From Bacteroidales bacterium (GTDB lineage: Bacteria; Bacteroidota; Bacteroidia; Bacteroidales; UBA932): 64,000 nt of DNA. Shown in pieces: positions 32,505 through 48,503 of the stretch (positions are counted from its first letter, which is position 1; the number at the start of each line of letters is the position of its first letter). The notes under the pieces were generated by a model. It did no database searches. It was not told where the DNA came from and was given only the letters and a program-made list of their open reading frames with translations. The position numbers and the translations under genes are program-made. The DNA is taken from positions 124,001 through 188,000 of the forward strand of contig JAGAFU010000052.1 of the NCBI GenBank assembly GCA_017627955.1. Reading direction: 5' to 3'.

Positions 32505-32506
32505 TA

Positions 32507-32619: not shown

Positions 32620-32621
32620 AA

Positions 32622-32662: not shown

Positions 32663-32665
32663 TTG

Positions 32666-32739: not shown

Positions 32740-32762
32740 AGGTTATTTCCCTTTCGGGATTG

Positions 32763-32793: not shown

Positions 32794-32815
32794 TTTTTTT
32801 CAATGTTTTTTTGCG

Positions 32816-32823
32816 TATATTTG
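32816..32823 (+). promoter_or_regulatory. -7 box heading the peptidoglycan-salvage operon
   Basis: TATATTTG, a perfect -7 element, 23 bases before the ATG at 32847; a T-rich run stands where the -33 box should be. I saw no equally good promoter inside the next nine genes, so this may drive all of them. Confidence 0.6.
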
Positions 32824-32846
32824 TGAGAACATTCGTCAGCAAAAAG

Positions 32847-33512
32847 ATGGATATCGACCTTTTCTCAGACATAGTCAAGAGCTTGATTCTTGACAATGAT
32901 GAAGTTACGTTGCCAGGATTGGGGACGTTCGTGTCTGAGTTGATGCCATCGACATTTTCAGACAAAGGCTACACGATCAACCCTCCTTACCGCCGCCTGT
33001 CTTTCCGTCAGCGCTCCGGTTCATCCGATTCGCTGCTCGTTGACTTCTATTCGAAGACAAACGACATCGATCCAGATAAGGCCGCTGAGATTGTCGGGGA
33101 TTTCCTCGAGGGACTGAAGGAGACTCTGAGCTCAAAGAAACTGGTGGTCTTGCCTGGTCTTGGCCGATTGAGGGCCACAAAGGAGAACGCCTTCTTCTTC
33201 ATCGCGGATGAGGATCTGGACATATTCCCTGATGGATTCGGCTTGGAACCGGTGTCCCTGAAGGCGCATGAGGAAACTCAGGAGGCCCTAGCCGCCGAGG
33301 ACCCTGCCCCGGCCGCGGAATCTCCCTCTTCGGCAGTAAAGCCGAAGAAGAGCGGTCGCTTCCTTAAAATCGTACTCGGCGTGGCTGGGTGTCTGATACT
33401 GGCCCTGGCGCTATTCGTCATCCTGTCGAGATTGGCCCCTGATTTTGTCGACCATTTGCTGTACAACAAGGAAGAACTGATGATCATCAATTATCCTGAT
33501 CCTAATGTTTGA
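32847..33512 (+). CDS. Membrane-anchored HU-like (HU-CCDC81 type) protein
   Basis: A 221-residue protein with two HU-like segments (about 1-65, VTLPGLGTFVSE; and about 70-125, VVLPGLGRLRATKENAFFF). An acidic Ala/Glu/Pro linker follows, then one membrane helix (about 170-195, FLKIVLGVAGCLILALALFVIL) and a short outer tail. Related Bacteroidetes proteins carry a C-terminal SPOR domain that binds denuded peptidoglycan; here the protein stops soon after the helix, so SPOR is missing. The ATG at 32847 follows the -7 box by 23 bases; an earlier in-frame ATG would span the promoter. Its end overlaps the NUDIX gene by 8 bases. Confidence 0.78.
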   Translation: MDIDLFSDIVKSLILDNDEVTLPGLGTFVSELMPSTFSDKGYTINPPYRRLSFRQRSGSSDSLLVDFYSKTNDIDPDKAAEIVGDFLEGLKETLSSKKLVVLPGLGRLRATKENAFFFIADEDLDIFPDGFGLEPVSLKAHEETQEALAAEDPAPAAESPSSAVKPKKSGRFLKIVLGVAGCLILALALFVILSRLAPDFVDHLLYNKEELMIINYPDPNV

Positions 33513-34095
33513 ATTGATATATCCCGTTGATCCAGCCCCGCTGCTTCCTCTCCCGAGTGCCGACAAGCCGGGGATCCGTTCGCTTGCCGGCGCGGAGATG
33601 TTGCCTGTTGTGGAAGAGAACGGCCTTGTGATCGGCCAGACTCCCAGGAAGGAGGTCCACTCAGGACTTAAGCTCCTCCATCCTGTCGTGCACCTCCATA
33701 TCTTGAACCGTTCTTCAGAGTTGTTCCTTCAGAAAAGATCCATGAAGAAGGATTTGCTCCCCGGTAAGTGGGACACCGCTGTCGGTGGTCATGTGGATTA
33801 TGGCGAGCTCCTTGAAGTCGCGCTATACAGGGAGGCTTACGAGGAGCTGCGTTTCACGGCTTTCAATCCTATATATCTAAGGACCTACGTCTGGGAAAGC
33901 TCCACGGAAAAAGAACTTGTCAATGTGTTCGCTGCGGTGGGCAATTTCAAGATAGATGTGGTCAATGAGGAGGTGGAAGAGTGTCGCTACTGGACCATGG
34001 AGGAGATATTCTCTTCTCTCGGGAAAGGAATATTCACTCCTAATTTCGAGCACGAGTTCACTTCTTTCAAAGATAATCTTTTGGCTCTGTTGTAA
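33505..34095 (+). CDS. NUDIX hydrolase
   Basis: A 196-residue pyrophosphohydrolase. The NUDIX box runs from G95 (GHVDYGE, then RE at 109-110 and EE at 113-114), matching Gx5Ex7REUxEExGU up to its last positions (LRF). The region just before it (KRSMKKDLLPGKWDTAVGGH) resembles isopentenyl-diphosphate isomerase-like or YfcD-like NUDIX enzymes. Its place in a cell-wall operon suggests a nucleotide-sugar or prenyl-diphosphate substrate, as inference only. The stop TAA shares its last base with the next ATG. Confidence 0.9.
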   Translation: MFELIYPVDPAPLLPLPSADKPGIRSLAGAEMLPVVEENGLVIGQTPRKEVHSGLKLLHPVVHLHILNRSSELFLQKRSMKKDLLPGKWDTAVGGHVDYGELLEVALYREAYEELRFTAFNPIYLRTYVWESSTEKELVNVFAAVGNFKIDVVNEEVEECRYWTMEEIFSSLGKGIFTPNFEHEFTSFKDNLLALL

Positions 34096-36359
34096 TGGAG
34101 ACTGAAATCGGCAAATTCATCAGGGACCAGTTGTCTGTTTGGCCGCTGGCTGCCGCCAATTACCGGGATCTCAGGAAGGTCAGGACCAAGACCCTGACTG
34201 TCGGGGGAGTGGATGTCATCGTGCAGTTCAACCCTTGCAGAAAGGTATCATCCGAGGCGGCTTTGGATCCGGAATCAATAGCCGGAAGGCCGTGTTTCCT
34301 TTGCCCTGAGAACCGCCCCCAGGAACAGTACAATATTGATTTTGAAGGGCGTAAGGGAAAGAAGTACCGCATTACCCTGAATCCTTTCCCGATCTTTCCT
34401 CGGCATCTTGTCATCTCGAATGTCCATCACATCCCCCAGTCAATCTGGAGACGTTATCAGGATATGCTTGATTTTGTCAAGGAAAATCCTGGTTATCAGT
34501 GCTTTTACAACGGGCCCAGGAGTGGGGCTTCCGCACCTGACCATCTTCATTTCCAGGCTTGTCCCCAAAGGTTAATGCCCTTGGTGGAAAAGATTGACTC
34601 GTTGATTGATTCACAAGCTCCGGATCTTACGTACCTCACGAGCATAAAAGAGGCCCGCCTTTATCACATGACAGGGTTCGCCAATGGGCTGTACGTCCTT
34701 CGGGCATCCACTCCGAAATCCATATCCAAGCTTTTCTACAGGCTTCTCGATTGCGCTCCGGTTCACGAAGGGGAAGACGAGCCGAGGATGAACGTCATCT
34801 CATGGAAGACTGACCTCGAATTCAGGACTGTGGTGATATTCAGAAGCAAACATCGGCCTGGACATTATTTCAGTGATGGTCCCGTGCATCTTGCCATGAG
34901 TCCAGGGTGCGCTGACATGGGCGGCGTTTTCATTACCACCCGCGAGGATGATTTCAATAAGCTTGATTCGGCCCTTCTCGAGGAAGTCGTCAAGGAGGTG
35001 ACAATCTCCGAGGACGAGGACAAGGGGATAATCTGGCGGTTGACAAGGACCCAGGAGAAGCTGGAGGTCGGAATCATGTCTTCGGAAGAGATCGTGTTCG
35101 AGATAGTCGCTGACGGGGCAGGCCCCCAACGAGTGGCCTATCAGGAGGGCAAGATATCATATAATGGAGCTCTCTATGACGAGTTGACCTTCGAGGCCCA
35201 GACAGAGGATGCCATGTTCGCCCGTCCGTCTTTCATCCTCCATGATGTGACAATAGGAGTTGATTTCCATTGGGAACGCAAGATCACTCGGCAATATGCC
35301 GGGACGCTGAAGTTCATCGTTGAGGAAGGAAAGGTCACAGCGGTGAATATCATCGGCGTTGAGGATTATCTGCTTAGCGTGATATCCTCCGAGATGAAAC
35401 CCTCCGCCGGACTTGAGTTCCTGAAGGCCCATGCCGTGATATCCCGCTCATGGGTGATGGCCCAGATTCGTAACCGCAAGTTGAAGGCTTCCAGGACGTT
35501 ACCGGTGGAAGAACTTGAAAGCATGAACAGTGTTCCGGCTTTGGTCACGGCGCTGGATTCCAGAATGGCCGCCAGCCCGGACTCTGAAGATCAGGGAGGA
35601 GAATACATCAAATGGTTCGACCATGATGACCACTCCCGGTTTGACGTTTGCGCTGATGATCACTGTCAGCGTTACCAGGGATTGACCAAGGCGATCGGGC
35701 AGACAGCCAGAAAGGCTGTCGATCTCACCTGGGGTAAGGTGCTGACTTATGGAGGTGAGGTCTGTGACGCCCGTTTCTCCAAATGCTGCGGAGGACGCAC
35801 GGAATTGTTCAGTACATGTTGGGAAGAGAAGGAATATCCTTATCTTCAATCATTTCCGGATACCCCGAACGAGACCGCTGGCGCTTGCCCGTTCTGTGAC
35901 ACATCTGACGAAGGAATCCTTTCGCAGGTGCTGAATGACTACGATCTTGAGACGAAGGACTTCTACAAGTGGAAGACGGAATATACTCGGGATGAGTTGT
36001 CATCGCTCGTCCGCAGGAGGTCAGGCATTGACTTCGGGACCATCCGGGACCTTGTCCCTGTCGAACGCGGGCCATCGGGCCGGTTGAAAAAGTTGGGAAT
36101 AGTCGGTGACCGCACCTCCATGGTGATCGGTAAGGAATTGATAATAAGGCGCTGGCTATCTGACTCCCATCTGAAAAGCTCAGCTTTCGGGGTCAAGTGG
36201 GAAGGCGACAAAATTATTCTTGAAGGATCCGGCTGGGGACATGGTGTCGGCCTTTGTCAGATTGGGGCGGCAGTGATGGGTGCGAAGGGATATTCCTTCG
36301 AAGAAATATTGAGGCATTATTATCCAGGCGCTACAATAGAAGAATATGAATACGAGTAA
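34095..36359 (+). CDS. DUF4922 (GalT/HIT-like) fused to SpoIID/LytB
   Basis: A 754-residue two-part protein. Residues about 1-310 are DUF4922, with RPCFLCPENRP and an HLHFQ motif at 150-154 that matches the HxHxQ of nucleotidyl transferases such as GalT and GDP-L-galactose phosphorylase. Residues about 330-754 are a SpoIID/LytB domain. It has VEDYLLSVISSEMKPSAG with the catalytic-type glutamate, AHAVISRSW, cysteine-bearing CCGGRTE, and the end GSGWGHGVGLCQIGAAVMGA. SpoIID is a lytic transglycosylase that cuts denuded glycan strands. There is no signal peptide, which is odd for a wall hydrolase. It overlaps the NUDIX gene by one base and the permease by 14. Confidence 0.88.
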   Translation: METEIGKFIRDQLSVWPLAAANYRDLRKVRTKTLTVGGVDVIVQFNPCRKVSSEAALDPESIAGRPCFLCPENRPQEQYNIDFEGRKGKKYRITLNPFPIFPRHLVISNVHHIPQSIWRRYQDMLDFVKENPGYQCFYNGPRSGASAPDHLHFQACPQRLMPLVEKIDSLIDSQAPDLTYLTSIKEARLYHMTGFANGLYVLRASTPKSISKLFYRLLDCAPVHEGEDEPRMNVISWKTDLEFRTVVIFRSKHRPGHYFSDGPVHLAMSPGCADMGGVFITTREDDFNKLDSALLEEVVKEVTISEDEDKGIIWRLTRTQEKLEVGIMSSEEIVFEIVADGAGPQRVAYQEGKISYNGALYDELTFEAQTEDAMFARPSFILHDVTIGVDFHWERKITRQYAGTLKFIVEEGKVTAVNIIGVEDYLLSVISSEMKPSAGLEFLKAHAVISRSWVMAQIRNRKLKASRTLPVEELESMNSVPALVTALDSRMAASPDSEDQGGEYIKWFDHDDHSRFDVCADDHCQRYQGLTKAIGQTARKAVDLTWGKVLTYGGEVCDARFSKCCGGRTELFSTCWEEKEYPYLQSFPDTPNETAGACPFCDTSDEGILSQVLNDYDLETKDFYKWKTEYTRDELSSLVRRRSGIDFGTIRDLVPVERGPSGRLKKLGIVGDRTSMVIGKELIIRRWLSDSHLKSSAFGVKWEGDKIILEGSGWGHGVGLCQIGAAVMGAKGYSFEEILRHYYPGATIEEYEYE

Positions 36360-37629
36360 ATCTCCTTGGTTGTGGGTCCCCACATTGTATCTTGTGGAAG
36401 GGCTTCCTTACGCCATCGTCAACACAATCGCTCTTGCGGTCTTCAAGGATATGGGGGTTGATAACGGCACTCTCGGTCCATTGACGACGCTGATCAGCCT
36501 TCCGTGGCTCATCAAGCCTCTCTGGAGCCCTTTTATGGACATATTCCGGAGCAAGAGATGGTGGATCCTCATCACGCAATTCACGATGTTGGCTGTGGTG
36601 GCCCTGATAGCCCTCATGCTGCCAATGTGCTCGATGACCGTTCTATTGATCCTGTTCGTCATTGTCGCGTTCGCCTCCGCCACTCATGACATATCGGCTG
36701 ACGGCTACTACATGCTTGCCTTGGACAGGCAGCGCCAATCCTCTTTCGTTGGGATCCGCAACACCTTCTACAGAGGTGGGCTTGTCCTTGGTCAAGGGCT
36801 TCTGGTCATGCTTGGCGGCGTGTTACAGAAACGCACGGGGGACGTGGCCCAGTCTTGGGCCGTCGTCCTATTCATCTCCGCCGCTCTTCTTGCCTGTGTC
36901 GCCGTCTATCACTTTTTCCTGTTGCCTAGGCCCGAGGAGGACGTGGACAGGCGCTCGAAAGATTCCGCTGTCAAGATCTGGTCTGAGTTTGGCGAGGCTT
37001 TCCGCTCGTTCTTCATGAAGAAAGGAGTATGGTGGGCGATAGCTTTCCTGCTTCTGTACCGCCTTCCCGAGGCACTTTCCCTCAATCTCCTGTATCCTTT
37101 CTTCAAGGATGGTCCTGAAGTCGGAGGATTGGGAGCCGGCACTCAGATGTACGGCCTTGTGTACGGCACTTTCGGAGTCGTGGCTCTTCTCCTGGGTGGA
37201 ATCCTGGGTGGGGTTTACGCTTCCCGCCGCGGTTTGAGAAAGTCCATGTGGCCCATGGCTCTCGCTCTTGCCTTGCCATGTGCGGTCTATCTGCTGATGG
37301 CGATTTTCCGTCCCGTCAGTGTGTGGCCGATAGGATCCCTGATCGTTCTGGACCAGTTCGGTTACGGGTTCGGTTTTACTGCCTACACTCTTTTTATGAT
37401 GAGGTTTGTGGACGGTCCCCTCAAGACATCGCACTATGCCATCTGCACAGCCTTCATGTGGCTCTCGATGAAACTTCCAGCGATCTTCGCCGGCTATCTC
37501 CAGCAATGGCTGGGGTATGTCGGTTTCTTTACCCTTGTGATGGTCTCCTGCCTTGGCACCTTCGCCGCCGCTGTTATCGCCCGTTCGAAGATCCTTGCCA
37601 CCGATCAGGAATCCGTCTCGAATAATTGA
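36346..37629 (+). CDS. AmpG-like muropeptide permease (major facilitator)
   Basis: A 427-residue transporter with about twelve membrane helices. The start SPWLWVPTLYLVEGLPYAIVNTIALAVFKDMG and the internal ATHDISADGYYML are characteristic of AmpG-type major facilitators, which import GlcNAc-anhydroMurNAc peptides. It overlaps the DUF4922-SpoIID gene by 14 bases and is 13 bases before namZ, so import sits between two glycan-cutting enzymes. The exact cargo in this organism (anhydro or reducing muropeptide, or free sugar) cannot be read from sequence. Confidence 0.85.
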   Translation: MNTSKSPWLWVPTLYLVEGLPYAIVNTIALAVFKDMGVDNGTLGPLTTLISLPWLIKPLWSPFMDIFRSKRWWILITQFTMLAVVALIALMLPMCSMTVLLILFVIVAFASATHDISADGYYMLALDRQRQSSFVGIRNTFYRGGLVLGQGLLVMLGGVLQKRTGDVAQSWAVVLFISAALLACVAVYHFFLLPRPEEDVDRRSKDSAVKIWSEFGEAFRSFFMKKGVWWAIAFLLLYRLPEALSLNLLYPFFKDGPEVGGLGAGTQMYGLVYGTFGVVALLLGGILGGVYASRRGLRKSMWPMALALALPCAVYLLMAIFRPVSVWPIGSLIVLDQFGYGFGFTAYTLFMMRFVDGPLKTSHYAICTAFMWLSMKLPAIFAGYLQQWLGYVGFFTLVMVSCLGTFAAAVIARSKILATDQESVSNN

Positions 37630-37642
37630 AACTTTTGATGAT

Positions 37643-38953
37643 ATGAGAACTCAGCTGATTCTTATGGCGGCGGCCTTGCTTTTGTCGTGCCGTACCCAGG
37701 CCTCCAGAGAGGCTCCGGCATCCTCGCCGGCCGCGCTTCCTGTCACGACCTCGTCCGTTCCGGTCGTGAAGGTCGGGATAGAAGTCCTTGAGAGCAAGGG
37801 ATTTGAGGGCTTGAAAGGGAAGAGGGTCGGTCTTGTCACGAATCCAAGCGGAGTCGACCATGAGCTTAGGTCGACCATCGATATCCTGCATGCCGCACCG
37901 GAGGTCAATCTGACGAAACTTTTCGCCCCGGAGCACGGAGTGCGCGGTGACATCTACGCCGGCGGAAGGGTAGAGGACGGCAAGGATCCCGTGACCGGTC
38001 TCCCAGTGTTCTCTCTCTATGGAGCGACCCGTAAACCGACTCCGGAGATGATTTCAGGCCTGGATATCGTCGTCTATGACATACAGGACATCGGCAGCCG
38101 GTCCTACACCTTCATCAGTACTCTTGGCCTGGTGATGCGGGCCTGCGCGGAGCAGGGGATAGAAGTCATGGTTCTGGACCGTCCTAATCCTTTGGGTGGC
38201 AATAAGGTCGAGGGGAGCATCGTCGAAGACGGCTTCCACTCATTCGTCAGCGAGTTCAAGATTCCCTACATATATGGACTCACGGTCGGAGAACTGGCCA
38301 CCTTGATCAATGAGGAAGGCCTCAACTGTGGAGAGAAGGGCAACGAGAAGCCCCTCAAATGCGAGTTGAGCGTTGTCCCGATGGAAGGGTGGCATAGGGA
38401 CATGCTATACGAGGACACCAAACTACCATGGGTCCTTCCTTCTCCCAACATCCCATATCCCCAGTCCGCAATCAATTATCCTTCCGCCGGAATAGTCGGA
38501 GAGTTTCAAGGCTATTTGAATATCGGGATCGGCTATACCCTTCCGTTCGGCGTTTTCGCCGCCGAATGGATTGATGCCGACAAGCTTAAGGCCAGGCTGG
38601 ACAGCTATCAACTGCCTGGAATAGCTTTCCGGACCATCCATTTCAAGCCATTCTCTGGCAGTGCGCAAGGCAAGCTGATACATGGGGTTCAATATCATTA
38701 CACCGATTTCGAGGCCGCTTGCTGTACTCTCACGCAATTCTATGTGATGCAGGCTGTTGGTGAATTATATCCTTCAAAGAACCCTTTCAAGCTATCTTCC
38801 GGGCGAATCGGAATGTTCGATAAGGTTTGTGGTACGGATTATGTAAGGACGAATTTTGAGAAGCGACTGAAAGTCGAAGACATCGCGGACTACTGGTCCA
38901 AAGATGTGTATAGTTTCAAGGAGCTCTCCAGAAAGTACCTGATGTACGAGTAA
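37643..38953 (+). CDS. namZ: Exo-beta-N-acetylmuramidase NamZ (DUF1343) lipoprotein
   Basis: A 436-residue lipoprotein (LLLSC at about 12-16) of the DUF1343/GH171 family. Characterised members remove MurNAc from the non-reducing end of peptidoglycan fragments. The conserved core starts with GKRVGLVTNPSG, then FAPEHGVRGD with the catalytic-type glutamate E97, DIQDIGSRSYTFISTLG, and LDRPNPLGG. The ATG at 37643 puts the lipobox at the N-terminus. Just upstream is an AmpG-like importer and downstream are a sugar kinase and a MurU-like enzyme, so released MurNAc probably feeds that route. Confidence 0.9.
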   Translation: MRTQLILMAAALLLSCRTQASREAPASSPAALPVTTSSVPVVKVGIEVLESKGFEGLKGKRVGLVTNPSGVDHELRSTIDILHAAPEVNLTKLFAPEHGVRGDIYAGGRVEDGKDPVTGLPVFSLYGATRKPTPEMISGLDIVVYDIQDIGSRSYTFISTLGLVMRACAEQGIEVMVLDRPNPLGGNKVEGSIVEDGFHSFVSEFKIPYIYGLTVGELATLINEEGLNCGEKGNEKPLKCELSVVPMEGWHRDMLYEDTKLPWVLPSPNIPYPQSAINYPSAGIVGEFQGYLNIGIGYTLPFGVFAAEWIDADKLKARLDSYQLPGIAFRTIHFKPFSGSAQGKLIHGVQYHYTDFEAACCTLTQFYVMQAVGELYPSKNPFKLSSGRIGMFDKVCGTDYVRTNFEKRLKVEDIADYWSKDVYSFKELSRKYLMYE

Positions 38954-38972
38954 CTACTAAAACTACTGTAAT

Positions 38973-40445
38973 ATGAAAAACATCCTTAACATCGCGATCG
39001 CATCGATAGTGGCTCTTGCCATGGTCGCGTCTCCTGTGGATTCATATTCCCAGAATAGATCTTCCTCGGGCAGAAGCTCGACGTCTTCAACCTCCAGTGC
39101 CAGAAGCTCTTCTTCAGGATCTTCCTCCAGAAGTTCAGGCAGTGTCTCCAGAAGTTCTTCCCAGAGAAGCTCCGCCGCGGCTCCCCAGAGAAGCTCCGGC
39201 AGCGTCTCCCAGAGAAGTTCCGGTAGTGTCTCCCAGAGAAGTTCCGGCAGCGTCTCCCAGAGAAGCTCCGGCAGCGTCTCCAGAAGCTCTTCCGGTTCTT
39301 CCTCTTCCCGTAGCTCGCAAGTGAGCGGCAGCTCTTCCCAGAGAAGCTCCGCCACCACTTCCTCTTCACGTAGCTCACAAGTGAGCGGCAGTTCTTCCCA
39401 GAGAAGTTCCACCGGGACTTCCCAGAGAAGCTCCGGCAACGTCTCCAGAAGCTCTTCTACCACCTCCAGGAGCTCCAGCTCCAGGGTCGCTCGCCCTATC
39501 GGACAAAACTCCACTTCAAGGAGCAATGTTTCCCGCAGCGCCGCCAACAACGGTACAAGGGATAGGTCACAGGCAGTCGGCAACGCTACTCGCGGTGGTT
39601 TGACCACCTATGACAAGAACGCTGTCCGCACTGGAAACGACGTGATGAAGGAGACCCGCAATGACTTTATGAGGATTGGCGAGGACAGGAATGTCCACAG
39701 GATCCCTCCGAGGGACCGTGACTTCCTCCCTTACAACCATCCTGGCCACTTCTGGGGTCATGCGCCTCACTACTACGGCTACAGGGTCAGCTACCTGCCT
39801 CCGAGGTACAGGAGACTGACTTACTGGGGTGTCGAGTACTGCTTGTATGACGGCATCTACTACAGGCCCTACGGTGGGTACTGGGTAGTCTGCAGACCTC
39901 CCTTCGGAGTTTGCATCGACATGGCGATCTCTGATCTGGTATTCTCCAGGGTACGCTTCTCGTACTACTACAATACCTATAGGATCTACAACGCGATCGA
40001 TGCCAACAACAGGGTAATCGACGAGCAGAACAGGATCATCGCCCAGAACAATGCCACCATCGCGGCGCAGAACAACGCGCTGGCCTTGAACACAACCAGG
40101 GCTAACGACGCTTACACCCTCGCCAACAGGCTTGGACTGGTGCAGAGCTACGCTTATGCCGATCAGCCTTACTACTATCAGGACGGTGTGTTCTACATCG
40201 TGAACTCCAAAGGTCAGTATGAGGTCATAGTCCCTCCGGCCGGAGCTCTTGTCGAGGAGCTGCCTGACGACTACGACACCATTACCCTCGATGGAGTACC
40301 TTACTACAAGGTTGACGACACCGTCTACAGGACCACCCTCGTGGAGGGCAAGCCCTATCTCGAGGTCCTTGGCCAGATGTACGGCAAACTCGCCCAGCAG
40401 CACAACTATTACTCCAACGGAGCCAAATACAACGACCTCTATTGA
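38973..40445 (+). CDS. Secreted Ser/Arg-rich repeat protein, DUF6515-like C-terminus
   Basis: A 490-residue exported protein with a signal peptide ending about residue 26 (VDSYSQ). Residues 28-175 are almost only serine, with arginine, glycine, glutamine and valine, including four copies of QRSSGSVS at 72-103 and two copies of SSRSSQVSGSSSQRSS from about 111. A Tyr/Pro-rich folded part follows (HYYGYRVSYLPPRYRRLTYW, then VIVPPAGALVEELPDDYD), which looks like the DUF6515 family, plus an Asn/Gln-rich helical stretch (NNRVIDEQNRIIAQNNATIA). The basic disordered arm could bind wall or nucleic acid. A leader ACTAAAAC precedes its ATG. Role unknown. Confidence 0.72.
   Translation: MKNILNIAIASIVALAMVASPVDSYSQNRSSSGRSSTSSTSSARSSSSGSSSRSSGSVSRSSSQRSSAAAPQRSSGSVSQRSSGSVSQRSSGSVSQRSSGSVSRSSSGSSSSRSSQVSGSSSQRSSATTSSSRSSQVSGSSSQRSSTGTSQRSSGNVSRSSSTTSRSSSSRVARPIGQNSTSRSNVSRSAANNGTRDRSQAVGNATRGGLTTYDKNAVRTGNDVMKETRNDFMRIGEDRNVHRIPPRDRDFLPYNHPGHFWGHAPHYYGYRVSYLPPRYRRLTYWGVEYCLYDGIYYRPYGGYWVVCRPPFGVCIDMAISDLVFSRVRFSYYYNTYRIYNAIDANNRVIDEQNRIIAQNNATIAAQNNALALNTTRANDAYTLANRLGLVQSYAYADQPYYYQDGVFYIVNSKGQYEVIVPPAGALVEELPDDYDTITLDGVPYYKVDDTVYRTTLVEGKPYLEVLGQMYGKLAQQHNYYSNGAKYNDLY
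39186..39281 (+). repeat. Four 24-base tandem repeats inside the Ser/Arg-rich gene
   Basis: Each unit encodes QRSSGSVS. The copies differ at some third positions, yet are close enough to slip during replication, so length variation between strains is likely. Further serine repeats flank them from 39057 to 39495. Confidence 0.85.
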
Positions 40446-40449
40446 TCTG

Positions 40450-41865
40450 ATGGAAAAGCTCAAGGATTTATTCGAAAGCTACACAGGTCAGAGAGCCACG
40501 GAAACGGAGGAGTTGACATCTTCCGGCAGTAACAGGAGATATTTCCGCCTCAAGGGCGGAAATATCTCTATTATTGGCGTGGTCGGGACCAACAAAGAAG
40601 AGAATAACGCTTTCATCAAATTAAGCCGGCACTTCACCGGCAAGGGAATCAACGTGCCGAGGGTGCTGGCAGTCTCGTCTGACGGGATGCGTTACATCCA
40701 GGAAGATCTCGGGGATGGCCAGTTGTACAAACTGGTCACTCAAGGGAGGGAGAGCGGTGAGTATAGCTCCGCCGAGCGGGGGCTGCTTCTCCGGGCCATG
40801 GAAGAACTTCCGAAGATCCAGTTCAAGGGGGCTGAGGGCTTGGATTGGTCTGTATGCTATCCTGAACCGGCTTTCAGTGAGCGGATGATAATGTTTGATC
40901 TTAATTATTTCAAATATTGCTTCCTTAAAGCGACCGGGCTGGATTTCAATGAGGTCACTCTTCAAGAGGATTTCGAGCGGCTTCGTGACGATCTCATGAG
41001 TGACATGGGGCAGACTTTTATGTGTCGCGACTTCCAGGCAAGGAATGTGATGGTCAAAGATGGGGAACCATATTTCATTGATTTCCAGGGGGGACGCCGA
41101 GGACCAATCTACTACGATGTCGCTTCGTTCGTCTTTCAGGCGAGAGCCCGTTATCCCGAGTCCCTGCGTAAGGAGATGATTCAGACTTACCTGGCTTCCC
41201 TCAAAGGGTATATGCCTGTAGATGAGGAAGTTTTCCAGGACAAACTCAGGCTCTTCGTCCTATTCCGGAGCCTTCAGGTACTTGGCGCTTATGGCTTCCG
41301 GGGATATTTCGAAAAGAAGCCCCATTTCCTTGCCAGTGTCCCGTTCGCTCTGGGGAATCTTCGCAAGCTGCTCCAGAAGCCTTTCACGGCTTATCCGTAT
41401 CTGAACCAGATTCTCACCAAGCTGACAACCATGTCTCAATTCAACAGCATTGTTGAGGATAAACGCTTGGAGGTGAGGATATTCAGCTTTTCTTACAAGA
41501 AAGGGATCCCGGCCGATACCTCCGGTAACGGCGGGGGATATGTCTTTGATTGCAGGGCGATCAACAATCCTGGGAAATATGAATATTACCGCCAGTTTAC
41601 AGGGTTGGACGCGGAGGTCATAAAGTTCCTTGAGGACGACGGGGAAGTCATGAGATTCCTCGACAATGTCTATCCTCTTGTCGACGCTCATGTCAAGCGC
41701 TTCATGGAGAGGAAGTTCACCCACCTCCAGGTCAGTTTCGGATGTACTGGAGGCCAGCACCGTTCCGTCTACTGCGCGGAGAGCCTGGCGAGGCATCTGT
41801 CGGATAAATTTGACATCAAGATCACGGTCTCGCACCGTGAGCTGGACATTGAGAAGATCCTGTAG
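40450..41865 (+). CDS. AmgK-like sugar kinase fused to RapZ C-terminal domain
   Basis: A 471-residue cytoplasmic fusion. Residues about 1-325 are an aminoglycoside-phosphotransferase-fold kinase (SSGSNRRYFRL at 24-34, catalytic D194 and N199 in CRDFQARNVM, metal-binding D211 in DFQG). It resembles AmgK, which makes MurNAc- or GlcNAc-1-phosphate. Residues about 338-470 match the RapZ C-terminal domain (FSYKKGIP, GYVFDCRAINNPG, FTGLD, GCTGGQHRSVY at 431-441). In E. coli that domain senses glucosamine-6-phosphate and binds RNA. The RapZ N-terminal P-loop domain is absent. The next base after its stop starts the MurU-like gene. Kinase substrate is inferred from neighbours. Confidence 0.88.
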   Translation: MEKLKDLFESYTGQRATETEELTSSGSNRRYFRLKGGNISIIGVVGTNKEENNAFIKLSRHFTGKGINVPRVLAVSSDGMRYIQEDLGDGQLYKLVTQGRESGEYSSAERGLLLRAMEELPKIQFKGAEGLDWSVCYPEPAFSERMIMFDLNYFKYCFLKATGLDFNEVTLQEDFERLRDDLMSDMGQTFMCRDFQARNVMVKDGEPYFIDFQGGRRGPIYYDVASFVFQARARYPESLRKEMIQTYLASLKGYMPVDEEVFQDKLRLFVLFRSLQVLGAYGFRGYFEKKPHFLASVPFALGNLRKLLQKPFTAYPYLNQILTKLTTMSQFNSIVEDKRLEVRIFSFSYKKGIPADTSGNGGGYVFDCRAINNPGKYEYYRQFTGLDAEVIKFLEDDGEVMRFLDNVYPLVDAHVKRFMERKFTHLQVSFGCTGGQHRSVYCAESLARHLSDKFDIKITVSHRELDIEKIL

Positions 41866-42606
41866 ATGAAAGCTTTGATATTCGCCGCCGGGCTGGGGAC
41901 CCGTCTCAAGCCATTGACAGACACCATGCCGAAAGCACTTGTCAAAGTCGGTGGCAAGCCCCTTCTTTACCATGTTATCACGAAGTTGAAGTCGGCCGGG
42001 TACGATGATATCGTGATCAATGTCCATCATTTTGCCGATGCGATTATAGATTATGTGAGGGCGAATGACGATTTCGGCATTAAGATATCTTTTTCTGACG
42101 AGAGGGATCATCTGCTTGAGACCGGTGGCGGAATACTTCATGCCAGGCACTTGCTAGAAGGGGGACCGTTTCTTATCCATAATGTGGATATCCTTTCCGA
42201 TCTCGATCTCGGTTGGTTCAAGGCCCAGGCCAGGCCGGAGGCGCTTTCCACGGTCCTCGTCAGCGACCGGGTCACCAAACGCTATCTCCTTTTCGATGAG
42301 GAAATGAGGATGGTCGGGTGGACCAATGTCGCCACAGGAGAGGTCCGGAGTCCTTATCCCGGGCTTGACCCGTCAAAATGCCGGCGCTACGCTTTTTCCG
42401 GGATGCATTTGATTTCTGACAGAATTTTCACTATATTTGAGGATGATGGTTGGGGAGAGCGCTTTCCGATAATGGATTTTTACATTAAGGAATGTGCCTC
42501 TCATCCTATCTATGGCGTGATACCGGACCATTTGAACATGCTGGACGTCGGAAAGGTTGAGACCATCGCTGAAGCTGAGACATTCATTCAAACTCTCAAA
42601 TATTAA
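41866..42606 (+). CDS. MurU-like sugar-1-phosphate nucleotidyltransferase
   Basis: A 246-residue enzyme with the pyrophosphorylase signature AAGLGTRLKPLTDTMPKALV at 7-26. The conserved GGKPLLYH, an E-T-G-G-G loop (HLLETGGGILHA), and the metal-binding NVDILSD follow. Size and order match MurU, which converts MurNAc-1-phosphate and UTP to UDP-MurNAc and so bypasses fosfomycin-sensitive MurA; other NDP-sugars are possible. It begins at the base after the kinase-RapZ stop, a coupling also seen for amgK-murU in other bacteria. Confidence 0.88.
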   Translation: MKALIFAAGLGTRLKPLTDTMPKALVKVGGKPLLYHVITKLKSAGYDDIVINVHHFADAIIDYVRANDDFGIKISFSDERDHLLETGGGILHARHLLEGGPFLIHNVDILSDLDLGWFKAQARPEALSTVLVSDRVTKRYLLFDEEMRMVGWTNVATGEVRSPYPGLDPSKCRRYAFSGMHLISDRIFTIFEDDGWGERFPIMDFYIKECASHPIYGVIPDHLNMLDVGKVETIAEAETFIQTLKY

Positions 42607-42611
42607 GCATT

Positions 42612-43058
42612 ATGGCTAAAGGTAAATTATGGTCCGAGTTCAAGGATTTCGCGATGAAGGGTAATGTCATTGACATGGCTGTCGGTGTGGTCATCGGCGG
42701 TGCCTTCGGAAAGATCGTCACCTCATTGGTGAGCGACATCATCATGCCCGCTGTGGGCGCTCTGTGCGGAGGACTCAATTTCACAGATTGGAAATGGGTT
42801 ATCAGCAAGGCTGTAGAGGAAGGTGGAGAGATTGTCAAACCCGAGGTCGCTATCTCATGGGGTAACTTCCTTCAGGTGATTTTCGACTTCATCATCATCG
42901 CCTTCTGCATCTTCATGGTGATTAAGGGCATCAACAAGGCCAAGGCCCTCAGCGAGAAGAAGGAAGAGGCTCCCGCCGAGCCTGAGGCTCCGGCTCCGAA
43001 GCCTGACGATGTGGTTCTTCTCGAGGAGATCCGTGACTTGCTCAAGAACAAGCAGTAA
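42612..43058 (+). CDS. mscL: Large-conductance mechanosensitive channel MscL
   Basis: A 148-residue channel that opens on membrane tension to release solutes during osmotic downshock. The N-terminal helix and first membrane span (FAMKGNVIDMAVGVVIGGAFGKIV) are textbook MscL, the second span (FDFIIIAFCIFMVIKGIN) follows, and the C-terminal bundle is preceded by an Ala/Glu/Pro linker. It is the last gene of the nine-gene run, 5 bases after murU, and a terminator stands shortly downstream. Confidence 0.96.
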   Translation: MAKGKLWSEFKDFAMKGNVIDMAVGVVIGGAFGKIVTSLVSDIIMPAVGALCGGLNFTDWKWVISKAVEEGGEIVKPEVAISWGNFLQVIFDFIIIAFCIFMVIKGINKAKALSEKKEEAPAEPEAPAPKPDDVVLLEEIRDLLKNKQ

Positions 43059-43068
43059 AACTCCCTGT

Positions 43069-44556
43069 TCAAGATTTCTGAGCGTCAGCCTCTTGTGTGG
43101 CTGGCGCTTCTTCTTTTTTCAGCCTGCGGATTATCTTGTAGCCGGTAATGGCCACGATGACGCTCATGAAAGGACTTATTATGTTGAAGAAGCAGTAGGG
43201 CAGATAGGTTATCGTCGGAACCGAGAGAATCGTGGCCTGTGTCATGCCGCAACTGCTCCAGGGGAATAAAGGCGAAGTCACTGTCGCTGAGTCTTCCACT
43301 GCCCGGCTCAAGAGCCGTCCTTCGTATCCTTCTTTCTCGTAGATGTCCTTGAAAACGCTGGAAGTCAATATTATGGAAAGATATTGATCAGAGACTATCC
43401 CATTCAGGGCTGTTCCAGTCGTGACGGTGGAAGCGACCAGGCCGCCGCGAGTCTTTGTGAGTGGCAGTATCAGCCTGGAGAGACTCTCAAGCATGCCGCT
43501 GGCTTTCATGGCGGCGCCAAAACACATCGCGCAGATTATGAGGTAGACGGTGTTGAGCATACCTGCCATACCCCTTGTTGACACCAGCTCGTTGACTTCG
43601 GGATTCCCTGTCTCCAGCGAGACGGAGTCGTAAATTGTCTGGACAACTCCGGTGAACATGATTTTCCAACCACTGCCATTGGATATTCCCGAACCGATCT
43701 CACGCATGATCCCTGGTTGTAGCACCAGGGCGGCCACTACCGCTGTGACGATCGAGATGGCAAGGACGATTATGGCGGGCATCTTTTTGTAGATCATGAA
43801 AGCCGTCAGAAGCGGGACGATGAAAAGCCACGGGGAGATGTTGAACTTTTCGGCAAGGGTGTCAGTGTAGATGCTGATGTTGGCGGAGTCGGCCCCCGAA
43901 TGCGAGAGACCGAGGATCAGGAAGATTATCAGCGTGATGGTTATGGAAGGGACCGTGGTGAAGAGCATGTAGCGGATATGCTCGAACAGGGGGACTTTAT
44001 TCATGGAAGAAGCCATCACGGTGGTGTCGGACAGGGGAGAGATCTTGTCTCCGAAATATGCTCCGGAGATAATGGCTCCGGCTATCATGCCGTCGCTGAA
44101 TCCTTCGGCCTTCCCGATGCCAAGGAGGGCGATTCCTATCGTGGCTATTGTTGTCCATGAACTTCCTATCATCAATGAGACGAAGGCACAGATCACGCAA
44201 GCTGTCAGGAGGAATATCTTCGGACTGATGATCTTGACCCCGTAATAGATGAATGTCGGGACGATTCCGCTCATGGTCCATGTCCCTGAGATTCCTCCGA
44301 TAAGGAACAGGATGACAATCGCCGTGGTCACATCCCCGATATTCCCTTTGATGGCTTCCTCAAACTCATGCCATGGGACTTTCAGGCGCCACATCGCGAG
44401 CCATACGCAGATGCCTGAAGCGAATAGCAGCGACACCTGGCTGGCGCCAAGGATAGCGTCGCTCCCGAATATGCTGATGTCAAGCGCCAGGAGGATAATT
44501 AGAGTCAAGATGGGGATCAATGAGATCCCCAGCCTGGACGGGGATTGTGCTGTCAT
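43069..44556 (-). CDS. nhaC: Na+/H+ antiporter, NhaC family
   Basis: A 495-residue integral membrane antiporter with about eleven or twelve helices. Typical NhaC segments are visible: SSWTTIATIGIALLGIGKAEG, AIISGAYFGDKISPLSDTT and the C-terminal CGMTQATIL region. It exchanges sodium for protons and helps with pH and salt balance. Its last codons (an Ala/Glu/Lys tail) also encode a terminator for the converging mscL operon. NhaC family members can also move amino acids or malate/lactate with Na+/H+, so the ion assignment is by family only. Confidence 0.9.
   Translation of the reverse strand: MTAQSPSRLGISLIPILTLIILLALDISIFGSDAILGASQVSLLFASGICVWLAMWRLKVPWHEFEEAIKGNIGDVTTAIVILFLIGGISGTWTMSGIVPTFIYYGVKIISPKIFLLTACVICAFVSLMIGSSWTTIATIGIALLGIGKAEGFSDGMIAGAIISGAYFGDKISPLSDTTVMASSMNKVPLFEHIRYMLFTTVPSITITLIIFLILGLSHSGADSANISIYTDTLAEKFNISPWLFIVPLLTAFMIYKKMPAIIVLAISIVTAVVAALVLQPGIMREIGSGISNGSGWKIMFTGVVQTIYDSVSLETGNPEVNELVSTRGMAGMLNTVYLIICAMCFGAAMKASGMLESLSRLILPLTKTRGGLVASTVTTGTALNGIVSDQYLSIILTSSVFKDIYEKEGYEGRLLSRAVEDSATVTSPLFPWSSCGMTQATILSVPTITYLPYCFFNIISPFMSVIVAITGYKIIRRLKKEEAPATQEADAQKS
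43081..43119 (+). terminator. Intrinsic terminator of the salvage operon, inside nhaC
   Basis: GCGTCAGCC at 43082-43090 pairs with GGCTGGCGC at 43099-43107 (one G-T pair) around an 8-base loop, followed by TTCTTCTTTTTT. It lies 24 bases past the mscL stop but within the last codons of nhaC on the other strand. Confidence 0.6.
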
Positions 44557-44582
44557 TTAGTTAAATTCGTTGTGTGACAACA

Positions 44583-44590
44583 CGAATATA
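44583..44590 (-). promoter_or_regulatory. Possible -7 box for nhaC
   Basis: On the minus strand it reads TATATTCG, one mismatch from TAnnTTTG, 26 bases upstream of the nhaC ATG. No clear -33 box was seen. Confidence 0.35.
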
Positions 44591-44650
44591 AAATTTTTTT
44601 GTCATTTTTATGCAAGATTTCGGAAAAACGGGATTTATAGTATAGAAGCT

Positions 44651-45466
44651 ATGAATAAGAATGACCTGTTTCTATCCTGCCGTCTGTTGATGGCTCTGAC
44701 GCTCCCAGCTTTGCTGATAGCGGCTTGCACTGCGGAAAGTACTTTCCTGGAGCAAACCAATCATGCTGCGGAAGTGTCTAGCTTCCAGAACGATATGCGC
44801 TGGGCTAACGCCATCGTGACGGTTAGGAAGACTTCAGCTGGAAGGAATTATTTCCAATTGGACGAGGCAACCACTCTTGAGCCGGTAGGCTGGGACAATC
44901 CTTTCAAGTCAGAAGTGAGGGCATTGGTCGCTTTTTCGGACCTAGGGGCGAAAACCGATTTCTGCACAAGAGCGGTTTCTGTGGAGCGCATAGACTCCAT
45001 CGTGACCAGGGACGCGGCTTACATTGATGTTGACGACGGCTTTTCCGGTGCATCACCATACCCTGTGTTTCCGGTATCAGTCGGTTACTCATCGTCAACC
45101 GAGATGCTTGAGGCCAGCAGTCCCGTTGATTTGGTCACGAACGAGGGCATCCCGGATTGGATGACATTCTCCGAAGACGGCTACCTGATGATTCACTTCG
45201 CCACTTTCTGGGGAGATGTCACTCAGCACTCTGTCAATCTCTACGCTTCCAGGAGGCATCCGGACCATTTGTATCTGGTCCATAAGGATAACGGAGATTT
45301 TCAGAGCGCGTGGAAAGAAAGCTTGGTAGCCTTCAGGATCTGCCAATTGTACATGTCCAGAAAGGACTCGTACAAAGATCCTGGATCGGTTGTTCTCCAT
45401 TGGATGTCATTCAGCGGGGAGAAGACGATAAGGCTGAAGTATGGAAACAGGGCAACTGAGAAATAG
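44651..45466 (+). CDS. NigD-like lipoprotein
   Basis: A 271-residue lipoprotein with signal ending LLIAAC. The N-terminal part (NAIVTVRKTSAGRNYFQLDEATTLEPV) and the later ERIDSIVTRD fit the OB-like and beta-sandwich layout of NigD-like proteins of Bacteroidetes, which occur near bacteriocin or envelope genes and have no assigned function. The ATG at 44651 starts the signal peptide; the longer frame from 44570 does not. It ends 7 bases before the sigma factor gene, so the three genes 44651-47290 may be one unit. Confidence 0.7.
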   Translation: MNKNDLFLSCRLLMALTLPALLIAACTAESTFLEQTNHAAEVSSFQNDMRWANAIVTVRKTSAGRNYFQLDEATTLEPVGWDNPFKSEVRALVAFSDLGAKTDFCTRAVSVERIDSIVTRDAAYIDVDDGFSGASPYPVFPVSVGYSSSTEMLEASSPVDLVTNEGIPDWMTFSEDGYLMIHFATFWGDVTQHSVNLYASRRHPDHLYLVHKDNGDFQSAWKESLVAFRICQLYMSRKDSYKDPGSVVLHWMSFSGEKTIRLKYGNRATEK

Positions 45467-45473
45467 CTTGTAG

Positions 45474-46049
45474 GTGGAGGCGACAGAGAAGAAGGTCATT
45501 GAAAAGGCCCTGGAAGGGGACAGGAATGCGGTTAAGCTGTTGTACGACCGCTATTCCGATTTCCTTACGGCCATTTGCTCGAGGTTCTTTCCGGCGAGGG
45601 TTGATCAATGTGACATCCTCCAGGACTCCTTCGTGAAGATATTCTCTTCCCTGGACAGGTTCGTTTATAAGGGAGAGGGATCTTTGAAAGCCTGGATGAA
45701 GCAGATCACCATAAATGAGTGCCTGAAGACTTTGAGGAATAGAAAGCGTAGCGTGCCGATCGTTTACGAGGGTGAGCTCCGCGACACTGAGGAGGAAGAT
45801 GACAGCGGGCCGCCTGATTTGACAGATGTCCCGGCGGGCGTTATCCACAGGATGATCCAGGAGCTTCCGGAAGGTTACAGGGCAGTGTTCAACCTTTTCG
45901 CGCTCGAGAGAAAGCCTCATAAAGAGATAGCGCGCTTGTTGGGAATAAGTGAAAGCACATCAGCGTCGCAGTTTGCCCGGGCCAAGGGATTATTGGCAAA
46001 GAAGATAATAGAATATAGTAGTAATAACAAGGTCAATAAAAAACGATGA
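45474..46049 (+). CDS. ECF-type RNA polymerase sigma factor
   Basis: A 191-residue group 4 sigma factor. Region 2 includes LLYDRYSDFLTAICSRFF, then DILQDSFVKIFSSLDRF and the promoter-melting segment with GSLKAWMKQITINECLKTLR. Region 4 includes LPEGYRAVFNLFALERKPHKEIARLLGISESTSASQFARAKGLL. The start is a GTG at 45474, preceded by the NigD-like gene. Its stop overlaps the next start as ATGA, and that gene encodes its likely anti-sigma partner. The signal is unknown. Confidence 0.93.
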   Translation: MEATEKKVIEKALEGDRNAVKLLYDRYSDFLTAICSRFFPARVDQCDILQDSFVKIFSSLDRFVYKGEGSLKAWMKQITINECLKTLRNRKRSVPIVYEGELRDTEEEDDSGPPDLTDVPAGVIHRMIQELPEGYRAVFNLFALERKPHKEIARLLGISESTSASQFARAKGLLAKKIIEYSSNNKVNKKR

Positions 46050-47290
46050 GCGAAGATTGGTTGAAAATAGTCAAGGAGAAGATGGACTCCTACGAGACTC
46101 CCGTTCCTGAAGAGGTCTGGGAGAGAGTGGAGGCTTCTGTCTTCCCCGAGAAGACACGCAAGGTGCGGTTCATGCCTTGGGTGTGGTCAGCCGTCGCCGC
46201 CGCGGCTGTGGCCTTGGGCGTTTTCGCTGGCTTGCGTCTGATGGACAATAATGGCGGGCGTGGTACTGATGATAACTATGTGGCGGAGAACCAGGTCTCT
46301 TCCGAAACAAATTCTTCTTCTTCAGTCATTGATGGAGGAGACCAGGTTTCTTCGGCATCAGAAGAACCTATCCGTTTGGTTCCCGCGCCTTCGAGGTCGG
46401 TTCTGGCCGTGGCCTCTCCGGTCATTCCTGAGGATAATGCCGAACCTCAAGTCTCGGAAGATGTTGAGATTGTCAACGTCCCTCCTGCAGGTCCTGAACA
46501 AGTCAAACCGCAGGATGACAAGAAGGATTCCGGGTTCAAGACAGATCACGATGGCGAGGATTGGTCGGACTATATGTCCGCTACAGGAGAAGGAAGGCGT
46601 TCCGGGAAGAGGACTCCTTCTGCCGGTTTCTCGCTGACCAGCGCCGCCAGTACGGCGCAGACCATCAATACGATGGACACAAAGCCATTCTTCCTTGGGT
46701 ATGCCTCCAATCTTGACATGGGCACCAGGAACGACGCGACAATCTACACCAAGACAACGTCTATTCCTGTCAAGAAAGATGAGGAGCATAACAGGCCGAT
46801 CCGTATGTCCCTTTCTGTCGACATTCCGTTGACAGGCGCCCTTTCGCTGGAATCCGGCATCACTTATTCAATCCTGCGCAGCACTTTCACGACCTCCTCA
46901 GGAACCAGGGTCTCCGAAGACAAACAGACATTGGGGTATCTTGGGGTTCCTCTGAATCTTAAGGCTGACCTGTGGCGCAATGATTTGTTTACCGTCTACG
47001 GCATCGGTGGCGGGATGGTGGAAAAGTGTGTCAACGCTGTCGCCAACACCTACACGACCGTAGGAGGAGAGAAGAATGGTACAACCAAACTTCAGTTCAA
47101 TGTCAAGCCTCTTGCCTGGTCAGTGAACGCCTCGGCGGGATTTCAGGTCAATATTCCCGGATCTCTGGGCATATATGCGGAACCTGGTGTCAGCTACCAT
47201 TTCCCGGACAACTCCAAGGTGAGATCCATCTACACGGAGAAGCCATTTGATTTTGTCATGTCTTTCGGTGTCCGGTACTCCTTCAGATGA
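46046..47290 (+). CDS. Anti-sigma-type membrane protein with C-terminal beta-barrel
   Basis: A 414-residue protein. The first 45 residues resemble the cytoplasmic part of anti-sigma factors (DWLKIVKEKMDSYETPVPEEVWERVEAS, taken in pieces). One membrane helix follows (about 48-66, WSAVAAAAVALGVFAGL), then a Ser/Glu/Pro-rich stretch to about 200. The C-terminal 200 residues look like a PorT/OmpA-type beta-barrel (SVDIPLTGALSLESGITYS, ending VMSFGVRYSFR). A single chain with an inner-membrane anchor and an outer-membrane-type barrel is puzzling but recurs in Bacteroidetes. The 3' end overlaps hutI by 8 bases on the other strand. Confidence 0.78.
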   Translation: MSEDWLKIVKEKMDSYETPVPEEVWERVEASVFPEKTRKVRFMPWVWSAVAAAAVALGVFAGLRLMDNNGGRGTDDNYVAENQVSSETNSSSSVIDGGDQVSSASEEPIRLVPAPSRSVLAVASPVIPEDNAEPQVSEDVEIVNVPPAGPEQVKPQDDKKDSGFKTDHDGEDWSDYMSATGEGRRSGKRTPSAGFSLTSAASTAQTINTMDTKPFFLGYASNLDMGTRNDATIYTKTTSIPVKKDEEHNRPIRMSLSVDIPLTGALSLESGITYSILRSTFTTSSGTRVSEDKQTLGYLGVPLNLKADLWRNDLFTVYGIGGGMVEKCVNAVANTYTTVGGEKNGTTKLQFNVKPLAWSVNASAGFQVNIPGSLGIYAEPGVSYHFPDNSKVRSIYTEKPFDFVMSFGVRYSFR

Positions 47291-48503
47291 TCACTTTCTT
47301 AATGAAAGGACTCTGGTGGGCATAGGGAATATAAGCTAATGAAGGAAGCGGCCTGGTCAGTATCAGGTTCGCTTTCTTTCCTTTTGTGATGGATCCCGCG
47401 ATGTCGGACACCCCCATGGCGTAAGCGGAATTGAGAGTACACGCGTTGAATGCCTGCTCCGGGGTAAGCTTCATCTTTATGCATCCGAGAGCCATCACGA
47501 AGCGCATGTCTCCCGAGGGAGATGATCCGGGATTGTAATCTGACGCCAGGGCAACACCTAAACCGGCTTGAATGAAAGTCTTGGCTTTCCCGTAGGGCAG
47601 CCCAAGGAAAAAAGACGAGCCAGGCAGCATTGTGGGCATGGTCCCGGTCCCTTTGAGAGCTTCGATTTCGGCTTCTGTAGTCCTCTCAAGGTGGTCAACT
47701 GAAAGAGCCTTGCGGGAGACTCCCACTTGGACTCCTCCGGAGCATGCCAGCTCGTTGGCGTGGATCTTCGGCACCAGACCGAAACGTTCTCCAGCTTCAA
47801 GAATCCGGTCGGTCTGGGCGGGGGAGAAGAACCCCTCATCGCAAAACACGTCAACATAATCCGCCAACCCTTCCGAAGCGACAGCGGGAATCATCTCCGA
47901 GCAGACGAGATCGACATATTCCTCCTGCCTCCCGGTATACGCCCTTCCGACGGCGTGCGCTCCAAGGAAAGTCGACTTGATGATGGCGGGAGAAGTCTCT
48001 TTGACCCGTTTGATAACCCTGAGCATCTTGAGCTCGTCCTGGGTATTGAGTCCATATCCGCTCTTTATCTCGATCGCTCCGGTGCCTTTCCTGATCATTT
48101 CCAGGACCCTCTCCATGGTTTGGGAATACAGATCATCCTCTGATGTGTCATGAAGCAGGTCAGCGGAGTTCAGGATACCGCCACCTCGGGCGGCTATCTC
48201 CTCGTAGCTCAGGCCATTTATCTTATCTATAAACTCCTGTTCCCGGGAGCCGGCGAAGCATATGTGGGTGTGCGAGTCGCAGAACATCGGCATAACCATG
48301 CCTCCTTCTGCGTCGGTCACCTCGTCGGCCTGGCTTGCTTCAGGGCAAGTCTCGGCAGGTCCAAAGTCTTTGATCAGGCCGTTCTCAATCGTGAGGAAGG
48401 CGTCACTGATGGAGACCACCTCGTCCATCTCCGATCCTGTCTTGCGGTCCACTCCCTCGGGGACAATCCCAACAAGGCAACCTATGTTCTTGATTATCTT
48501 CAT
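47283..48503 (-). CDS. hutI: Imidazolonepropionase HutI
   Basis: Third step of histidine breakdown: hydrolyses imidazolone-5-propionate to N-formimino-L-glutamate. The amidohydrolase pattern is clear: metal ligands in CDSHTHICFAG, GAIEIKSGYGL, FLGAHAV, HANELACSGGVQVG, and DYNPGSSPSGDM near the end. The 406 residues match the family. The start ATG overlaps the hutH stop by 4 bases; it is the last gene of the run. Confidence 0.96.
   Translation of the reverse strand: MKIIKNIGCLVGIVPEGVDRKTGSEMDEVVSISDAFLTIENGLIKDFGPAETCPEASQADEVTDAEGGMVMPMFCDSHTHICFAGSREQEFIDKINGLSYEEIAARGGGILNSADLLHDTSEDDLYSQTMERVLEMIRKGTGAIEIKSGYGLNTQDELKMLRVIKRVKETSPAIIKSTFLGAHAVGRAYTGRQEEYVDLVCSEMIPAVASEGLADYVDVFCDEGFFSPAQTDRILEAGERFGLVPKIHANELACSGGVQVGVSRKALSVDHLERTTEAEIEALKGTGTMPTMLPGSSFFLGLPYGKAKTFIQAGLGVALASDYNPGSSPSGDMRFVMALGCIKMKLTPEQAFNACTLNSAYAMGVSDIAGSITKGKKANLILTRPLPSLAYIPYAHQSPFIKKVII

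Follow-up and report, generated by a model that had tools for sequence, protein, structure and literature searches.

Why should a predicted sugar kinase of cell-wall salvage end in the C-terminal domain of RapZ, a protein known as an RNase adapter? The question is raised by a gene in a 64,000-nucleotide stretch of a Bacteroidales genome (GenBank assembly GCA_017627955.1, contig JAGAFU010000052.1, positions 124,001 to 188,000; hereafter the window), where a 471-codon open reading frame at 40450-41865 runs from an ATG at 40450 to a stop codon at 41863-41865. It lies on the forward strand, like all window features given here, and an alternative in-frame start, TTG at 40249, would run into the preceding gene. 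The product is a single chain of an AmgK-like APH-fold sugar kinase domain (residues 1-318; 40450..41403), a variable linker of low identity among 27 fusions (residues 319-338; 41404..41463) and a RapZ C-terminal domain, RapZ-C (residues 339-465; 41464..41844). We suggest that the fusion is an enzyme of N-acetylmuramic acid (MurNAc) salvage through the AmgK-MurU pathway that also acts at a second site, and that its RapZ-C domain may be a MurNAc-6-phosphate (MurNAc-6P) phosphatase carrying out the MupP step. We put the probability of the phosphatase reading at about 0.4.

The domain assignments agree across databases. In Pfam, the 471-residue protein matches APH at 21-248 (46 bits, cut-off 23.2) and the RapZ C-terminal domain PF22740 at 341-465 (120.3 bits, cut-off 27) and no other family; the HAD fold, the hallmark of MupP, is not among its matches. 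In a sequence search of the PDB, the part at 339-465 matched the RapZ C-terminal domain 5o5s (E 4e-15), and the part at 21-314 matched 3csv, whose deposited title is that of an aminoglycoside phosphotransferase (E 7e-11). The original prediction of an APH-type, AmgK-like kinase fused to RapZ-C at 40450..41865 proves right to the base, and the motifs it cited (CRDFQARNVM, DFQG and GCTGGQHRSVY) are all present. It was also right that the RapZ part comes without its P-loop half: the NCBIfam RapZ profile NF003828 is matched only from its position 153 on (106.3 bits over residues 333-465, cut-off 244), and Pfam, NCBIfam and PDB sequence searches found no match to the P-loop half anywhere in the protein. 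Lacking that half and scoring under the family cut-off, the window protein is not a RapZ. Similarly, “AmgK-like” marks the limit of naming for the kinase, because its matches to NCBIfam AmgK (NF045759; 69.3 and 37.8 bits) fall short of the equivalog cut-offs of 550 and 500. The catalytic residues of APH enzymes form a D...N...D motif. These positions are occupied by D194, N199 and D211, none of which varies among the 34 kinases aligned, and the motifs RDF..RN and ID.QGG were found in the 27 fusions. The base right after the kinase stop codon, 41866, is the first base of a gene for a MurU-like MurNAc-1-phosphate uridylyltransferase (41866..42606), whose top family match is NCBIfam MurU NF045761 (131.9 bits, under the cut-off of 250). 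Homology and context together give good support to the view that the kinase domain would make MurNAc-1-phosphate for the adjacent MurU.

The fusion is neither a chance arrangement nor a local one. Among 296 genomes of at least 90% completeness, drawn evenly across the phylum Bacteroidota in the GTDB sense, PF22740 occurs in 36, one copy each, and its open frames measure either 478-544 residues (27 fused copies) or 134-155 residues (nine free-standing copies); there is no full-length RapZ among these 36 hits. The gene murU adjoins RapZ-C in 28 of the 36 genomes (21/27 fused, 7/9 free-standing), and seven of the nine free-standing copies sit between kinase and murU on the same strand; the other two (genomes G180 and G271) have neither gene within 18-19 kb, the kinase lying elsewhere in the genome. 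Free-standing copies appear in three places of the drawn tree, most forks between them being unsupported. A scan of named genomes yielded at least 587 confirmed relatives, the best 80 of which were kept for locus analysis: 79 carry the titles of Bacteroidota groups and the remaining one that of Ignavibacteriales. Seventy-five of these loci encode the fusion, four place kinase and RapZ-C in two distinct but overlapping frames, and one has RapZ-C beside murU with no kinase match; murU lies within 600 bp on the same strand in 53, and for 19 the retrieved sequence shows no murU, over 1.5 kb being on hand in 17 of these cases. Persistence in relatives, on which the original prediction had made itself depend, is found in both samples, often beside murU. 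The closest relatives among the matches listed come from Bacteroidales metagenome-assembled genomes, the best with 84% identity over RapZ-C. When neighbours were clustered over 116 loci (35 from the genome sample, the 80 named loci and the window), kinase/RapZ-C was present in 109, MurU in 81, and any other cluster in at most 12.

Two side observations concern individual relatives. In genome G031 (L022:7682-9106), a TAA in frame, with TTT ATG after it, separates the kinase from RapZ-C; this is either a recent fission or a sequence error. Five records from human faeces titled “Bacteriophage sp.” (H41-H45: MT837443, MT839161, MT836462, MT839078 and MT837446) encode relatives of 50-60% identity, that of H44 being similar from residue 65 on; they are either mislabelled bacterial contigs or phage-borne copies.

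Which pathway RapZ-C belongs to can be judged from the company it keeps. A profile of the kinase finds matches in 100 of the 296 genomes, at 264 bits or more in 37 of them and at 71-151 bits in 63, the latter all of one family (f18). The 37 strong-kinase genomes comprise all 36 RapZ-C genomes and one more, G009, which has kinase-murU without RapZ-C; that is, 36/36 RapZ-C genomes have the kinase and 36/37 strong-kinase genomes have RapZ-C. In the three f18 loci looked at (L186, L187 and L188, of 63 genomes), the weaker, more distant kinase heads a kinase-murU-namZ cluster with no RapZ-C. It is well supported by homology and context that RapZ-C acts in the same pathway as the kinase.

The case for a phosphorylated substrate comes from the distribution of AnmK and MurQ, profiled over the 296 genomes together with RapZ-C and the kinase. 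The 36 RapZ-C genomes divide into 13 with both AnmK and MurQ (in one, G216, the AnmK hit is a contig-end fragment), 12 with AnmK alone, four with MurQ alone, the window's genome included, and seven with neither. All 63 f18 genomes and G009 have neither, and the 196 genomes without the kinase have both in 181 cases, AnmK alone in none, MurQ alone in 13 and neither in two. AnmK without MurQ is hence found in 12 genomes, every one with RapZ-C (and kinase), and none of the 181 AnmK-positive genomes without RapZ-C is MurQ-negative. Eight of the nine free-standing RapZ-C copies fall in this AnmK-only class, two of the eight being unlinked to the kinase and six coming from family f5. With the 63 f18 genomes excluded, a Fisher test of RapZ-C against MurQ absence gives p 2.8e-15, genomes being treated as independent despite their kinship. 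The distribution indicates that MurQ absence accompanies the AmgK-type route, an association that passages of PMC5371407 describe for Proteobacteria; the same passages report that Pseudomonas dephosphorylates MurNAc-6P with the HAD enzyme MupP, and the paper states that MurNAc-6P builds up in a murQ mutant of E. coli K-12. Cells with AnmK and without MurQ should make MurNAc-6P that MurQ cannot open, and would therefore have to dephosphorylate it to use AmgK-MurU. Genomes lacking AnmK may have another source: all seven RapZ-C genomes with neither AnmK nor MurQ have a match to the BadF/NagK/MurK family PF01869 (85-227 bits), for which G009 shows no match and 12 f18 genomes tested (of 63) show two strong matches, four weak partial ones (E about 1e-4) and none in six. 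These profile facts are consistent with, and not proof of, a 6-phospho-amino-sugar as the ligand of RapZ-C.

What the domain might do with such a ligand was approached by comparing residues, in E. coli numbering, across 37 Bacteroidota domains (the 36 genomes and Bacteroides finegoldii), eight full-length RapZ proteins and three actinobacterial plasmid copies. S166, F167, D182, R184, N188, P189 and G200, and in the loop G246, C247, G249, G250, H252, R253 and S254, are invariant in all 37 domains and all eight RapZ; the C, G, G, H, R and S of the loop are kept in the three plasmid copies as well. T248 is invariant in the Bacteroidota domains and Thr in 7/8 RapZ, D202 is Asp in 36/37 and 8/8, and a His near the C-terminus (window H462) does not vary in Bacteroidota and, as read from the printed alignment, is present in the RapZ rows too. 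The window sequence GCTGGQHRS (residues 431-439; 41740..41766) would form an anion-binding loop with a possible catalytic Cys, C432-T-G-G-Q-H-R438-S439 aligning with C247...R253-S254 of E. coli RapZ. Cys-X5-Arg phosphatases of the low-molecular-weight protein tyrosine phosphatase (LMW-PTP) type have a C-X5-R-[S/T] loop. That pattern (C432...R438-S439) occurs in 37/37 Bacteroidota domains. Over the 27 fusions, mean pairwise identity is 55.2% for RapZ-C, 46.1% for the kinase and 18.5% for the linker; an enzyme-like invariant site in a domain more conserved than the kinase it is attached to supports a phosphatase.

The ligand pocket itself is conserved in part. In E. coli RapZ, it holds malonate through the backbone of T248 and G249 and the side chains of H190, H252 and R253, and H190 is required for function. 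Four of these five residues are kept in 37/37 Bacteroidota domains, and to that extent the conserved pocket anticipated for the domain stands; the fifth, H190, which is His in 7/8 full-length RapZ, is Gly in 37/37, with R or K as the next residue in 36/37. An NGGG insertion (residues 360-363; 41527..41538) is specific to the Bacteroidota form and absent from the eight RapZ compared, and in a midpoint-rooted tree the Bacteroidota domains split from these eight (100/100, branch 1.5). At the level of profiles, an hhalign comparison with 26 LMWPc proteins (PF01451), the only Cys-X5-Arg family compared, gave a probability of about 1%, and so no homology to LMW-PTP.

We propose, then, that RapZ-C in these proteins is not an RNA adapter, and that its Cys-X5-Arg loop would bind a 6-phospho amino sugar and most probably cleave off the phosphate. 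MurNAc-6P would be the foremost candidate substrate, coming from AnmK or from a kinase of the MurK/NagK type; RapZ-C would convert it to MurNAc and pass this to the attached kinase, so that the net effect of the fusion would be to exchange a phosphate at position 6 for one at position 1. The lactyl carboxylate, the group that distinguishes MurNAc from glucosamine, could be bound by the Arg or Lys next to the lost His190. It is also possible, if on balance doubtful, that RapZ-C was at its root a Cys-dependent amino-sugar-6-phosphate phosphatase, that the Bacteroidota retain it as the MurNAc-6P phosphatase of cell-wall recycling, attached to AmgK and MurU or next to them, and that E. coli RapZ is a descendant which recruited the pocket to sense glucosamine-6-phosphate (GlcN6P) and hold a small RNA.

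Several facts weigh against the phosphatase proposal. AnmK on its own does not predict RapZ-C, being present in 25/36 genomes with the domain and 181/260 without it, with no overall link; five genomes of family f17 keep RapZ-C without AnmK; and the kinase genomes negative for RapZ-C essentially represent one family. An allosteric sensor, in which RapZ-C would bind GlcN6P, MurNAc-6P or another such phospho-amino sugar, leave it intact and switch the attached or neighbouring kinase to balance salvage against de novo synthesis, requires no specific substrate-making enzyme and so fits the genomes without AnmK. The four invariant pocket residues suit it, as does covalent attachment in 27/36 genomes, which would allow intramolecular control, and portions of PMC7073468 report that the isolated C-terminal domain of E. 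coli RapZ binds GlcN6P (KD 10 nM) and then releases GlmY. We regard a sensor as nearly as likely as a phosphatase. However, RapZ-C stands far from kinase and murU in two genomes, Gly at H190 in 37/37 together with the inserted NGGG loop makes GlcN6P specificity doubtful, and the invariant Cys, Asp182 and C-terminal His seem, in our judgement, to go beyond what ligand binding needs. A catalytic role for the conserved site, which had not been raised in the original prediction, is for us slightly the likelier of the two.

RapZ-C might instead be a dimerisation or docking module that joins the kinase and MurU for channelling. The E. coli domain is a homodimer, no RapZ-C genome lacks the kinase, and 28/36 have murU adjacent; yet such a scaffold has no need for an invariant polar pocket, whereas the whole Cys-X5-Arg-Ser loop is invariant, and the domain is unlinked in two genomes. 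We think this unlikely.

There remains a link to RNA. It had been supposed that these bacteria lack the GlmY/GlmZ circuit, and for GlmZ this is supported: it is over its gathering cut-off in 0/36 RapZ-C genomes, at most 47 best first-look candidates being scored per genome, and the one weaker hit, in G150, scores 25 bits; Rfam over window 30000-48000 reports one tRNA and nothing else. The published RNA path includes seven basic residues, of which K170, R184 and R196 are kept in the window protein and K194, R211, R238 and K251 are lacking; the protein is also without the K281-R282-K283 cluster. R238 is Lys or Arg in 8/8 full-length RapZ and Phe, Trp or Tyr in 37/37 Bacteroidota domains, in all of which K270 is missing. 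As K194, R211, R223 and K270 vary among full-length RapZ too, only R238 and H190 separate the Bacteroidota form from RapZ. That RapZ-C binds an RNA and signals salvage flux to RNA decay, as the original prediction entertained, is poorly supported and to us the least credible of the readings: binding of GlmY/GlmZ by the E. coli domain and the three retained basic residues are set against the aromatic residue at 238, the lost K270 and K-R-K tail, the GlmZ result, the want of any full-length RapZ among the hits, and a domain that tracks the kinase and MurU among metabolic recurrent neighbours.

Several further genes precede the fusion in the window. A NamZ exo-beta-N-acetylmuramidase (37661..38953; PF07075 284 bits, PF20732 126 bits) lies upstream on the same strand and is a likely source of MurNAc; as a predictor of RapZ-C, NamZ is uninformative, since 69 of the 72 genomes tested (36 with RapZ-C and 36 chosen without) have it. 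It is preceded by an AmpG-family muropeptide transporter (36346..37629; TIGR00901 174 bits, below the cut-off of 350), and between namZ and the kinase fusion stands a 490-residue Ser/Arg-rich protein with a C-terminal DUF6515 in Pfam (38973-40445). At 34095-36359, a 754-residue protein joins DUF4922 (182 bits) to a SpoIID/LytB domain (TIGR02669, 171 bits), and over its region 88-158 there is weak similarity to a model of hexose-1-phosphate uridylyltransferase. Elsewhere in the window's genome (L221:8270-9965), a protein beside MurQ has no Pfam match and shares 36% identity with the BadF-type neighbour of MurQ in G230; it is probably a MurK-like kinase, and T. forsythia MurK also adjoins MurQ according to parts of PMC5790795. 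A catabolic MurNAc route may therefore exist in this organism besides AmgK-MurU. Of 25 genomes with both AnmK and RapZ-C, only two have them close together, about 11 kb apart in G005 and about 16 kb in G271, so that proximity of the two is not general.

These results suggest a metabolic role of RapZ-C that is independent of RNA and of the P-loop half. They put in doubt the database name “RNase adapter RapZ”, given in at least one Bacteroides record: in RefSeq, it is the name of the 476-residue fusion of Bacteroides finegoldii, whose neighbour is a “nucleotidyltransferase family protein”. The tail that many gut and environmental Bacteroidota carry may act on sugar phosphates, as a phosphatase or a sensor not recognised so far, and not on RNA as its database name implies; RapZ-C becomes a candidate MurNAc-6P phosphatase for Bacteroidota with AnmK and without MurQ. 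The phosphatase idea also bears on a remark in the RapZ literature about a dead C247S variant and “transformed” GlcN6P density.

Among known systems, actinobacterial plasmids likewise carry RapZ-C outside RapZ, free-standing or fused, but the partner in two of the three looked at is NUDIX (fused or adjacent) and not an AmgK-like kinase. A plasmid of Streptomyces sp. ITFR-6 encodes RapZ-C fused to a NUDIX domain, and on one of Planobispora rosea RapZ-C is a gene of its own next to that of a NUDIX hydrolase; “RNase adapter RapZ” is the annotation of both (the L169:1212-2333 / L170:2210-3489 pair). With RapZ/YvcJ, RNase adapter and GlcN6P receptor, the Bacteroidota form shares the C-terminal domain, the Cys-X5-Arg-Ser loop, D182, R184 and D202; it differs in having no P-loop half, in Gly at H190, in an aromatic residue at R238, in the NGGG insertion and in its separate tree branch (100/100). 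The AmgK-MurU system of Pseudomonas resembles the locus in placing an APH-fold kinase beside a MurU uridylyltransferase, with NamZ and an AmpG-type transporter nearby in the window, whereas the window kinase bears a RapZ-C domain and the scores fall far under the AmgK and MurU equivalog cut-offs. Anabolic MurNAc recycling through AmgK-MurU is reported for Tannerella forsythia too, in portions of PMC13046382, and in passages of a preprint (PMC13041923) an E. coli that expresses AmgK and MurU from T. forsythia serves as the positive control for MurNAc labelling; as two Tannerella sp. metagenome-assembled genomes (L108, L121) carry the fusion, the T. forsythia AmgK is probably of the fusion kind. 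The parallel with MupP lies in the proposed reaction and in the genomic role, with AnmK present, MurQ absent and AmgK-MurU present; MupP, however, is a HAD phosphatase, while RapZ-C belongs to another family and would use a Cys nucleophile.
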